A stretch of 64,000 nt of DNA from an uncultured Opitutia bacterium (GTDB lineage: Bacteria > Verrucomicrobiota > Verrucomicrobiia > Opitutales > UBA953). A program made the position numbers and the translations under genes. Of this stretch, positions 37,658 through 42,484 are shown in pieces. The stretch is taken from the NCBI GenBank assembly GCA_903855995.1, contig CAIOAN010000002.1, positions 62,001 to 126,000 on the forward strand, given 5' to 3'. The notes beneath the pieces were generated by a model. The model searched no databases. It saw only the letters and a program-made list of their open reading frames with translations, and was not told where the DNA came from. Within the stretch, counting starts at the first letter, position 1, and each line of letters starts with the position of its first letter.

Positions 37658-38395
37658 TTACTTGAGCAGCTCCTTGACCTTCGCTTCCATGGCGTCGGTC
37701 CAGATTTGGTAACCCTTTTCGTTCGGGTGCAGAAGGTCGGGCATGATGGTCTTGGACAGCGTGCCATCGGCCTCGAGGAACTTGGCGCCAATATCGAGGA
37801 AGAAGACCTTCTTGTCGTCAGCGAAGCCCTTCACGATGGCGTTAGTGGCTTCGTTCTGCTGGCGGAACTTGTCGTCCTTGTTCGCGCCGCGGGGGAAGAT
37901 GGCGAGGATCAGGATCTTGGCGTCAGGGCACTTCTTCTGGAGGCTGGCGATGATCGCCTTGATACCTTCGGCGGTCTGTTCAGCGGTGCACTGGTAGACG
38001 GCTCCGTTGAGCTCCTTCTGGGCGCGTCCCTGGTGGCCGGTATTATTGGTGCCGATCATCAGAACAATCTCCTTCGGCTTCAGGCCGTCGAAATTCCCGT
38101 GCTCGAGACGCCAGAGGACGTGCTCGGTGCGGTCGCCGCCGATGCCAAAGTTAGCGGCCTTGAGCGGGGCCCAGTTCTTTTCCCAGACGGCCTTGCCCTT
38201 GCCGTCCCAACCGTGGGTGATCGAGTCGCCGAGGAAGACGAGCTGCGCTTCGCCCTGCTTCGAGATCACGTTGAAGGATTCATGGCGCTTTTCCGTGCCA
38301 GGGTGGAGCACCGGCTGGATGGCGTAGTTCGTGTCAGCCGAAGCGGCGACGAGGGACGCCACGAGGGCGACGAGGGACGTGAGGCGGGTCTTCAT
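37658..38395 (-). CDS. Secreted SGNH/GDSL hydrolase (PAF-acetylhydrolase beta/gamma-like)
   Basis: A 245-residue exported esterase. After a signal peptide (to about residue 20) the catalytic blocks are intact: FLGDSITHGW with nucleophile Ser58 (block I), the GGDRTEHVLWRLEHG stretch with the block II glycine, IGTNNTGH with the block III Asn, and PDLLHPNEKGY with Asp220 and His223 (block V). This sequence type is close to mammalian PAF-acetylhydrolase subunits and to bacterial rhamnogalacturonan/acetyl-xylan esterases. It probably removes acetyl groups from glycans. A paralogue 0.8 kb away (39229-40020) shares the scaffold but lacks the nucleophile and His. Confidence 0.9.
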   Translation of the reverse strand: MKTRLTSLVALVASLVAASADTNYAIQPVLHPGTEKRHESFNVISKQGEAQLVFLGDSITHGWDGKGKAVWEKNWAPLKAANFGIGGDRTEHVLWRLEHGNFDGLKPKEIVLMIGTNNTGHQGRAQKELNGAVYQCTAEQTAEGIKAIIASLQKKCPDAKILILAIFPRGANKDDKFRQQNEATNAIVKGFADDKKVFFLDIGAKFLEADGTLSKTIMPDLLHPNEKGYQIWTDAMEAKVKELLK

Positions 38396-38544
38396 AAGGG
38401 TAGACGCACTCTGCCCTCACCATGGCGGCTGGCAAGCCCCAGTCAGGCAGGGAAATCAAGGTATAGGCATTGAAAGCGTATTAAATTTGCCTTTCGTACC
38501 TTGGTAGCGCCCTGCCACCACCCCTTACCCCGATTCATTTCCCT

Positions 38545-39192
38545 ATGAGCAAATCTCTCAAAATTTTTCTCGCCGTCGCCTTCCTACTCTCCGCCACTCT
38601 GGGTGCCATCCTGCTTCGGAAAGAATCCAAACCGACATGGGACGGAACGGCCATGCTGGCGCGCGCCGAGGCATCGCTCGAGGGCTTACCCGCGAAGGAG
38701 GCTGGTGAAATCCGCGCCCTGCTCGTGTCTTCAGGTCCGCAACGCTACGACGACCGCGCCAGCGCCTGGATCAAGATTTCCACCAAGGATGAGCTTAAGC
38801 CGGCAGCGGATTACGCCACGGCGAGCCTACGCGCGATGGCCGAGACCGGCGACACCGAGGCGATGTGGCATCTTTACTTCGTCCTGACGATGCGCATCGC
38901 CACGGCCGATGAAGGCTTCAAGTGGCTGCACAAGGCGGCCCAGCTGGGACACCCTCGCTCGAAATTCGACGTGGAAAAGCGCGCCCTCAGCGATCGCCCG
39001 GAAAAACTCCTCGAAGCAATGACCGCTTGGGCTAAGCAAGAAAACATGGGCGGCTACCAGGCCTTGCATTGGTTTGCACATGAATATGAAATCGGGGGAA
39101 TCCTGCCTAAGGATCCGACGAAGAGTGCGGAATACCGTAACCGCGCCATGGCGTTGGGCGAGAAACTCTCCCCGTTGGCGGCCAAGAAGTAA
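38545..39192 (+). CDS. Membrane-anchored or exported Sel1/TPR-like helical protein
   Basis: A 215-residue protein with an N-terminal hydrophobic segment (residues 6-24) that could be a signal peptide or anchor. The segment MAETGDTEAMWHLYFVL...GFKWLHKAAQLGHPRSKFDV has the A-x-x-G-x-x-x-A helix-turn pattern of Sel1-like repeats, and a second less clear copy follows near GGYQALHWFAHEYEIGG. Such solenoids bind other proteins. Its partner is unknown. It lies between two leftward SGNH paralogues but is read in the other direction. Confidence 0.6.
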   Translation: MSKSLKIFLAVAFLLSATLGAILLRKESKPTWDGTAMLARAEASLEGLPAKEAGEIRALLVSSGPQRYDDRASAWIKISTKDELKPAADYATASLRAMAETGDTEAMWHLYFVLTMRIATADEGFKWLHKAAQLGHPRSKFDVEKRALSDRPEKLLEAMTAWAKQENMGGYQALHWFAHEYEIGGILPKDPTKSAEYRNRAMALGEKLSPLAAKK

Positions 39193-39228
39193 GCCGACTC
39201 CAAGCGGGAATTCGGGCAGGCCGCTGAC

Positions 39229-40020
39229 TTACTTCATCAATTCCAGCATTTTGGGCAAGATCGCGTCAGCCCACACCTGATAACCGTTGCCGCTCAGTCG
39301 CTCACTGTCAGGCAGCAGCTTGAGGTTGACGGCTCCGGCGGGCGTCAGGAATTTCGGGCTGAGATCCATATAGTAAACCCGGCGATTGTCTTCGTAGTTA
39401 CGGATGATCGAATTCGTGGCGCGGATCTGGAGCCGAATTTTATCATCCTTGGGGCCCATCGGGAAGATGCCCAGCAGGACAATCTTTGAGGTGGGGCATT
39501 TCTTCTGCAGCCGATCGATGATCGCCTTCACGCCCTCGGCGGTTTCCTTCGGCGTGCAATGGTAGATCACCCCGGGCAGCTCGGGCACCGTCCGGCCCTG
39601 GGCGACGATATTATTCTTGCCGATCAGCAGCACAATCACCTTGGGCTTGAGGCCGTCCATCATGCCCTGATCGATGCGCCAGAGCACGTTTTCCGTGCGA
39701 TCGCCGCCGAGTCCGAAGTTCGCCGCCCGGAGCGGCTCCCACACCTTCTCCCACACCTTGAAACCGGTCAGCGGAGAATCGACGTCGGGCGTATTCTCGT
39801 CCCAGAGATTGGTGAGCTCATCCCCGATGAAGACGATGTCGGCCCCGCCGTGGCTGGCGGTTTCCTTCATCTGGGCCAGACTGGCCTCGGTGTCCGGATG
39901 AACAATCGGCTGAATCGCCAGGTTCGCCGGCTTGGCCGGCGAGCCGGTGGCGGCGAGGGCGGCGGCGGTGAGGGCGGCGGCGGTGAGAAGGAAGTCCAAA
40001 ATCCGGCAGAGGGTTTTCAT
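39229..40020 (-). CDS. SGNH-fold paralogue with substituted catalytic residues (probable pseudoenzyme)
   Basis: A 263-residue exported protein (ATG at 40020, signal peptide to about residue 24). It aligns along its whole length with the SGNH esterase at 37658-38395, including NLAIQPIVHPDTE, WEPLRAANFGLGGDRTENVLWR, IYHCTPKETAEGVKAII and GYQVWADA. Yet block I reads FIGDELT, with Glu68 where the nucleophile Ser should be, and block V reads PDSERLSGNGY, with Arg241 in place of His. The Asp and Asn positions remain. The frame is open and the fold residues are kept, which argues for a selected non-catalytic protein (sugar-binding or regulatory) rather than decay. A new mechanism using Glu cannot be excluded. 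Confidence 0.8.
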   Translation of the reverse strand: MKTLCRILDFLLTAAALTAAALAATGSPAKPANLAIQPIVHPDTEASLAQMKETASHGGADIVFIGDELTNLWDENTPDVDSPLTGFKVWEKVWEPLRAANFGLGGDRTENVLWRIDQGMMDGLKPKVIVLLIGKNNIVAQGRTVPELPGVIYHCTPKETAEGVKAIIDRLQKKCPTSKIVLLGIFPMGPKDDKIRLQIRATNSIIRNYEDNRRVYYMDLSPKFLTPAGAVNLKLLPDSERLSGNGYQVWADAILPKMLELMK

Positions 40021-40087: not shown

Positions 40088-42373
40088 CTATTTAAGCGGT
40101 GGCAGAGCGTAATACGCACACTCGGCGAAGAAGAATTCCGCCATATTGATCCGCGCATAGTCATAAGACCCTACGGCCTTGAGGATTGACGCGCGGCCAG
40201 ACTCGTCACCCGCCAAGGCGACAATCGCCGCGGCGGCGAGCGGGTTGCGCATCCAGGTCGATTCGTAGTGCTTGCGCGTTCCCCGCTTCTTCATGTCGCC
40301 CGTCTCGGAGAGGCGCTGAGCGTCGGCCTGCGTGACCTGCGGGAACCAGGTCGTGTAGACGGCCCGCCAATCGGCGCTACCGAAAATCTTCTGGTCGGCG
40401 TTGTCGAACTGGGCATGCGTCGCGACGGCCGGCAAAGCAAACTGTGCGTTGACCTCGAGACCCTTGAGATACACGGCCTTCACGACTGGGTCCGTTTCGG
40501 CGGCGGCGAGTTTCGCGAGGCCGGCCTGGCTGCCGACATAGATCCAGAGCTGCCCTTTCTCGATGTGCGGGATAAACTCGAGGTCACGGGGGCATCCCAG
40601 CGCACAGATTTCCTGACGCGTCTCGGCGGATTTTGCCGGCTTCTCGGTGAGGGCCTTCCGGTAACGCTCCAGCCAGACGCCGTCGCCGGTCATTTCATGC
40701 GTGGCCCGGAGCAGATACAGGTAACGCACGACATCCCGGAAGTGCTCCCCTTTGAAGCCGCCGCGGAAATCACCCTTGAACGCGCCATCGCACGGGACCT
40801 TCCAGCCGTAACCCTCCAGCGACTCGGCGACCTCGCGAACCTTGGCCACGAGCACATTCCGCTCCTCGGTGCTCGGGATGTCGCTCAGGAGGTACGCGTG
40901 CATGCCGAGGAACCACGGGTGCATCTGGTCGTCGGAGCTCAGCGGATAGTGGCACTTGCCGTCGGAACCGACGCCACGGGCAACGAAGCCAGGGACGTCC
41001 GATACGGAAGCGCACTTGAGGAGGCCCCGCGAAAGCTTGCGGGCCTGCTCCTTGTCCGCGGCCGCACCGGAGCGGCGGGCGCGTTCGACCATGGCGTTCA
41101 GGTACATTCCGGTGAACATCGGCCCATTCTCGATCGGGCTCCACCAGCCGATGGCGTTGGGCTTACCCAGACGGCAGTCCTCTGGGGTAGGCAACTCGCC
41201 CACGTAATCACGGACGATACCATGCTCGTCGACAAAACGCTTCCAGATCTCGGCATGGGCCTTCTCGATGGCCTGGGCCGGCTCAGCCTTGACTACGAGT
41301 TCCTTGACCACGGCATCGTAGGCCGGCTTGGGCTTGCCCTGCCGATCGAAGAGCAGCGGGTGGTTCACGCGCTTCCACGGGAAATCGTTAAGCCAGCTCT
41401 GGCCGTCGTGGAGATTCCAAAATGAAACGCGGTCGATGACATCGCCATACTTGCGGAAGAGGCGGAACAGCTGGGCGTATTGCTCCGCCTGCCGGGCGAG
41501 GACCTCGGGCGGGCAGCCGTCCACGTATGGGTTGATCTTCGCCATCTCGGCGCGGTGCTTGTTGCCGTCGGCCCACCAGCGGCCGCGCGGGATGACGTCG
41601 ATATCGAGCTCGCTGACCACGACCTTCATACCGATGCCCCGCAGGGCGATCAGCGTCTTCTCGAGCGCCTCATAGGGCACGCGATCGAGCTCGTAGTGCC
41701 CTTGGAGACCGACGGCATGGAGCGGGGTATTGCGCGCCTTCAGCCTGGCGAGCAGGCCCAGCATCTTCTCCCGCTTGCCGTCGAGTTCGTTGTTATAGTC
41801 GTTGTAGATGAGCATGGCCGAGGGATCGGCGGCATGGGCATATTCGAAGGCCAACGCGATGAAGTCCTCGCCGGCGGCCCGGGTCCAACCCGACTCACGC
41901 AACTCGGCCTTGCCGTCATCGAGCGCCTCGTTGACCACGTCCCAAGACGAGATCTTGCCCTTGTAGCGGCCTACGACGGTATCGATGTACGACTTCATTC
42001 GGGCCAGCAGGACCTCCTTCGTGGCCGGCGCGGCGCCATCCTGATAGAACCAAGCCGGAGTGCGGTCGTCCTTGGCCCAGACCAGGCAATGCCCGACTAC
42101 TTTGAGATCCTTGGAGTTCGCAAAGGAGACGAACTTATCCGCCTGCTCGAAATTCCAAGCCTTGTCCGTCTGACGCAGCGCTGCGGGCTTCATGCAGTTC
42201 TCAGGAGTGACGTGGCTGAACTGAGCCGTCAGCAACGACCAGTCTGCCGGCCGATCGGGAATCCGGTCAGCTAGGCCTACCCCGGACGCCCAAGGCGAAG
42301 CCTGCCGGAGCGTCTGGGCCATGCCCAGGCACGAACACCATAAGACGGCAAGCAGAAGCGACAGGCGGGGCAT
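40088..42373 (-). CDS. Secreted GH10 endo-xylanase with a large C-terminal helical domain
   Basis: A 761-residue exported enzyme (ATG at 42373; a TTG six codons upstream is less likely). Residues about 25-355 are a GH10 barrel: FSHVTPENCMKP, VGHCLVWAKD, Glu149 in SSWDVVNEAL as acid/base, and Glu255 in VVVSELDID as nucleophile. GH10 enzymes cut beta-1,4-xylan internally. The last 390 residues (from about 370) are not a known binding module by eye: they have helices with Trp/Tyr/His-rich turns (MHPWFLGMHAYLLSD, DVVRYLYLLRATHEMTGDGVW), like an (alpha/alpha) toroid. This may be a second catalytic domain. It is read in the same direction as the SGNH pseudoenzyme (67 bp away). Confidence 0.88.
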   Translation of the reverse strand: MPRLSLLLAVLWCSCLGMAQTLRQASPWASGVGLADRIPDRPADWSLLTAQFSHVTPENCMKPAALRQTDKAWNFEQADKFVSFANSKDLKVVGHCLVWAKDDRTPAWFYQDGAAPATKEVLLARMKSYIDTVVGRYKGKISSWDVVNEALDDGKAELRESGWTRAAGEDFIALAFEYAHAADPSAMLIYNDYNNELDGKREKMLGLLARLKARNTPLHAVGLQGHYELDRVPYEALEKTLIALRGIGMKVVVSELDIDVIPRGRWWADGNKHRAEMAKINPYVDGCPPEVLARQAEQYAQLFRLFRKYGDVIDRVSFWNLHDGQSWLNDFPWKRVNHPLLFDRQGKPKPAYDAVVKELVVKAEPAQAIEKAHAEIWKRFVDEHGIVRDYVGELPTPEDCRLGKPNAIGWWSPIENGPMFTGMYLNAMVERARRSGAAADKEQARKLSRGLLKCASVSDVPGFVARGVGSDGKCHYPLSSDDQMHPWFLGMHAYLLSDIPSTEERNVLVAKVREVAESLEGYGWKVPCDGAFKGDFRGGFKGEHFRDVVRYLYLLRATHEMTGDGVWLERYRKALTEKPAKSAETRQEICALGCPRDLEFIPHIEKGQLWIYVGSQAGLAKLAAAETDPVVKAVYLKGLEVNAQFALPAVATHAQFDNADQKIFGSADWRAVYTTWFPQVTQADAQRLSETGDMKKRGTRKHYESTWMRNPLAAAAIVALAGDESGRASILKAVGSYDYARINMAEFFFAECAYYALPPLK

Positions 42374-42484
42374 GAGCCAAACAAAACTCAATTAGTGGCT
42401 GGTGTAAACATCGCTCCAACTCGCCGTCATGCAAAGCTCTTAGCGTTATTGGACATTTTTACGAAACTGACTATCCATGGACCT

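Follow-up and report, generated by a model that had tools for sequence, protein, structure and literature searches.

Our data suggest that P0003, one of two neighboring SGNH-family genes in the window (the whole 64,000-nucleotide stretch of DNA analyzed here, from an uncultured Opitutia bacterium), encodes a secreted, catalytically dead paralog of the esterase P0002 that has been kept by selection and acts without ester hydrolysis, likely as a binder of a partner or of substrate; we put the probability of this reading at roughly 60%. Both are encoded by the minus strand. P0002 (positions 37658..38395) encodes a putatively secreted SGNH esterase of 245 aa, assigned by its translation and a match to PF13472, and P0003 (39229..40020) encodes a putatively secreted, candidate SGNH-fold pseudoenzyme of 263 aa, assigned by its translation, PF13472 (58.1 bits), an AlphaFold2 model and a PDB match. 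The earlier note placed the two genes correctly and was right that their products align end to end, with 120 of 254 positions identical (47%; BLASTP E value 2e-85). A longer open reading frame called for P0003 (39229-40164) runs into the neighboring GH10 gene, and the ATG at 40020 is the likelier start, as it begins a stretch that resembles, by eye, a signal peptide. N-termini of this kind, again judged by eye, suggest that both P0003 and P0002 are exported. An assembly error behind P0003 is unlikely; the gene lies well within a contig of a 13-contig genome.

The motifs of P0002 (GDSIT...GTNN...PDLLH) make up the full SGNH set of Ser58, block-II Gly, block-III Asn, Asp and His223. Those of P0003 are GDELT...GKNN...PDSER, which bears out the block-I and block-V residues first read by the earlier note in both proteins. 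The SGNH nucleophile is missing from P0003, with Glu68 (codon GAG, positions 39817..39819, minus strand) in place of the block-I Ser, and of the block-V Asp and His, Asp238 is present and the His is replaced by Arg241 (codon CGA, 39298..39300, minus strand). Thus, of a Ser-Asp-His triad like that of the alpha subunits of PAF-acetylhydrolase (PAF-AH) Ib, Asp alone is left. The oxyanion-hole residues Gly106 (block II) and Asn136 (block III) are retained, aligned to Gly74 and Asn104 of PAF-AH. Besides Ser and His, much of the remainder of the pocket wall is altered too. At the nucleophile, the codons are TCG in P0002, GAG in P0003 and GAC (Asp) in P0004, a P0003-type gene from a second genome of the genus (G023); starting from TCG, a change to GAG requires at least two base substitutions. 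The codon at the His position is CAC in P0002 and in P0004, and CGA in P0003. Because SGNH catalysis requires Ser and His, P0003 is predicted to lack esterase activity.

Both proteins exceed the PF13472 cut-off of 32.9 bits in Pfam (P0002 at 107, P0003 at 58.1), P0003 matches the family along the whole domain (positions 1-177 of 178), and annotation by PF13472 alone would label it an esterase, which calls for caution; an NCBIfam search gave no match for P0003. The nearest solved relatives of both proteins are PAF-AH Ib alpha subunits (phmmer E values: P0002, about 1e-34; P0003, about 6e-23). The AlphaFold2 model of P0003 has a pLDDT of 80.9, with values below 50 confined to the signal peptide region and an insert at residues 72-83, and it matches PAF-AH Ib alpha1 and alpha2 with Z scores of 26.6-27.2 and an rmsd of about 2 Å over about 202 residues. 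The top nine matches are all PAF-AH Ib entries, after which Z drops from 26.6 to 21.2 at the next group; from these matches, the fold of P0003 is predicted to be intact. The matches include 1fxw, an alpha1/alpha2 heterodimer entry.

Orthologs of P0002 were found in 26 other genomes among 55 from the genus, with 77-98% identity across the matched stretch, and the next paralog group beyond them lies at about 54-61%. GDSIT and PDLLH are kept in every ortholog with readable motifs (in a few, cut at a contig end, the motifs are unreadable). A P0003-type gene is rare, occurring in 2 of the 55 genomes (this one and G023, as P0004); samples of 372 genomes from the order and 387 from the phylum yielded no third member, and a search of genome contigs with P0003 returned just two distant matches from Terriglobia, both having Ser. 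P0003 and P0004 are 47-48% identical in amino acids and no nearer to each other than to the active gene. The earlier note had proposed asking whether GDELT/DSER is conserved among homologs, and it is not: P0004, the sole relative found, has GDD at the nucleophile (Asp62) and keeps both the Asp and the His of block V, in DGMH. Of these motif changes, the two proteins share no more than the acidic character of the nucleophile residue, Glu itself being unshared and the change from His to Arg private to this genome. The nearest outgroup, made up of six members of a different family in the class (f33), has GDSIT and PD.LH throughout, and because all six proteins have Ser and His, the loss is derived.

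Three trees, each with its own outgroup, unite P0003 and P0004 at 100/99 support, and four alternatives (either copy with its own active gene, or either outside the pair) were rejected in AU tests (p 0.001-0.007), ruling out independent origins. Both have long branches, and the pair is placed within the active clade of the genus or sister to it, depending on the tree (AU p 0.32). The two share 22 residues absent from all active orthologs, including M188 in place of an Arg and A140 in place of a His that are both invariant in the active set, and in both the loops that connect block I to block II are longer; given these shared features, their common ancestor probably had an altered pocket already. 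We infer that the nucleophile position of this ancestor was acidic as well; Glu and Asp could also have arisen separately. In the history that we propose, one duplication in the genus, predating its radiation or falling early within it, would have given a second copy of a P0002-type esterase, and the catalytic pocket of that copy would have been rebuilt, with the nucleophile position turned acidic and with His121 and Arg169 (P0002 numbering) replaced by Ala and Met, while the fold, the oxyanion Gly and Asn and the triad Asp were retained. Purifying selection would then have maintained the copy in two species or more, one of which later lost the His too, and P0003 would most likely partner the active esterase, or bind the same substrate, beside the GH10 xylanase.

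Several findings count against this reading: a P0003-type gene was found in two species only, P0003 and P0004 resemble each other no more than they resemble the active gene, their former pocket is not conserved, and P0004 keeps its His. The gene might instead be a decaying or barely constrained duplicate, drifting and passed between species by a recombining locus without any specific function, which we consider unlikely. Its patchy occurrence in 2 of 55 genomes and the long branches would fit such drift, as would the pocket residues that differ between P0003 and P0004 and the genome G028, which has an insert at neither the P0003 site nor the P0004 site, though its P0002 is the most similar (98%). 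However, the frames of P0003 and P0004 are both intact, with no stop and no frameshift, and in a pairwise codon model of the two copies omega = 1 was strongly rejected (2dlnL 128, or 127 without the signal peptide), as the dN/dS comparison suggested in the earlier note called for, with dS saturated and the omega value itself therefore not quoted. On these two grounds we do not regard P0003 as decaying. Neutral simulation from P0002 to a similar divergence gave about 4-5 stops and an amino-acid identity of about 0.3, compared with 0 stops and 0.48 observed, and differences between P0003 and P0004 are distributed over the three codon positions as 0.38/0.29/0.58. The signal-peptide-like N-termini are also retained, as judged by eye. 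Provided that the shared pocket losses predate the split of P0003 and P0004, P0003 is retained by purifying selection after loss.

Of 133 columns invariant in the active orthologs, 63 are retained in both P0003 and P0004. The segments best kept between the two copies are blocks II and III (32 of 39 residues identical), which also speaks against drift, and residues 153-176 (17 of 24); block I (6 of 14), the insert (5 of 25) and block V (6 of 14) are poorly kept. Judged from this alignment, the conserved part is a structural half of the domain and not the old pocket mouth, which fits a retained scaffold or interface and speaks against a shared new active site. Other residues of the former pocket differ between the copies (Lys135/Met127, Glu240/Met233 and Arg241/His234), so that a new ligand site common to both cannot be seen. 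The view of P0003 as a selected pseudoenzyme, put forward in the earlier note, therefore gains from purifying selection, from intact frames in two species and from the 63 retained columns, and loses the conservation of GDELT/DSER; of the opposing picture sketched there, substitutions unique to one genome amid decay, only the uniqueness of the change from His to Arg holds, since the acidic residue is shared and the gene does not look decayed.

The usual gene order in the genus is ADH, a metallopeptidase-like gene, the P0002 ortholog, a Sel1-like gene on the opposite strand, and GH10. In the window, a 13-pair terminator-like hairpin lies 3' of P0002 (37610..37639, minus strand), a protein that looks like a Sel1-like-repeat protein and has no Pfam match is encoded between the two SGNH genes (38545..39192, plus strand), and a GH10 xylanase that carries a C-terminal domain of some 390 aa follows (40088..42391, minus strand). 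P0003 sits 67 bp downstream of GH10 on the same strand, with the Sel1-like gene on its other side; in G023, P0004 is flanked by the Sel1-like gene and the active gene, about 70 bp upstream of the latter and on the same strand. Each is no more than about 1 kb from the active gene, and in G023 a similar short leader precedes both P0004 and the active gene, as a tandem duplication would leave. Because identity in the Sel1-like gene and spacer shifts abruptly between species pairs (from 99-100% to 71-83% for G044 versus G023, and from 49% to 96% for G000 versus G023), recombination seems to have turned the locus into a mosaic, which probably explains both the patchy presence and the differing position of the P0003-type gene. 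Blocks of near-100% identity stand beside blocks of 50-80% among sister species over this stretch (38395-39192; L082, L083 and L085). G044 contains two different active copies, 93% and 97% identical to P0002, with partly identical flanks and on separate contigs (at the end of L085 and the start of L084); we did not count them as a tandem of two active copies, and they may be alleles split by the assembler, because the final stretch of contig C48 matches the sequence flanking the C83 copy without any difference. The C-terminal domain of the GH10 protein (about 390 aa) has no Pfam match, the two halves of GH10 lie about 2 kb apart in G002 and G041, and G017 matches the C-terminal part alone within the stretch examined.

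The GH10 neighbor suggests a xylan context for the pair. It is nonetheless improbable that P0003 partners the xylanase and not the esterase: P0003 is the next gene after GH10 here, close behind it on the same strand, whereas P0004 immediately precedes the active esterase gene in the same orientation and does not adjoin GH10. A partnership of P0003 with the active esterase is suggested by the PAF-AH Ib alpha subunits, which form both homodimers and heterodimers (1fxw). The glycan-binding or partner-regulating role raised in the earlier note would be plausible. Very improbable is new chemistry, in which the Glu or Asp at the nucleophile position would work on a different substrate together with the retained oxyanion hole, be it as acid, as base or as nucleophile: an acidic residue does occupy the same position in both copies and Gly106, Asn136 and Asp238 are kept, but Glu and Asp differ in reach and the three residue pairs named above differ between the copies. 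We would give an equally slim chance to the acidic residue being itself catalytic or ligand-coordinating, making P0003 an enzyme or sensor of different chemistry, carried in a cassette exchanged among sister species within a xylanase-esterase locus that recombines.

PAF-AH Ib alpha and SGNH proteins without catalysis have been described before, and P0003, though a real case, is not unprecedented. PAF-AH Ib alpha (1wab, 1fxw and 3dt6) is its best match in sequence and fold and has the oxyanion Gly and Asn and the Asp at the same positions, but the mammalian protein has Ser47 and His195 where P0003 has Glu and Arg, and P0003 has in addition a signal peptide and the insert between blocks I and II. 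In insect PAF-AH Ib alpha homologs the nucleophile and His are replaced, and the Drosophila protein is described as inactive and as having a non-catalytic role (PMC3281379, citing Sheffield 2000); as described there, these are animal genes with Cys and Asn, whereas P0003 is a secreted bacterial paralog with Glu and Arg beside its active twin. The OSK domain of Oskar (5a4a and 5cd9), which the P0003 model also matches (Z of about 15.6), has an SGNH fold that binds RNA (PMC6191285) and has been called catalytically inactive (PMC12247748), and thus resembles P0003 as an SGNH fold without catalysis kept for binding; it differs in having 15% identity, in belonging to a two-domain protein and in being intracellular. 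Plant GDSL pseudoenzymes, members of the GDSL family without catalytic sites or blocks that are retained in genomes (PMC4757993), represent another SGNH branch in other hosts. To these examples P0003 adds a bacterial, seemingly secreted paralog that lies beside its active twin and in which the nucleophile position is acidic. If P0003 is indeed a selected dead twin that binds the esterase or its substrate, the pair would offer a compact bacterial test case for the non-hydrolytic role of the PAF-AH Ib family, a question about its non-hydrolyzing members that the insect subunits leave open.

The same genome contains 25 PF13472 matches. Four large proteins (L019, L020, L022 and L024) have an SGNH-like domain without GDS (GDN in L019 and L024, GDV in L020 and GQE in L022), a block-V-like G-I/L-HL motif and a long C-terminal region after it, and are possibly another set of non-Ser SGNH domains. 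A further protein (L007) has two SGNH domains and keeps GDSIT in both.
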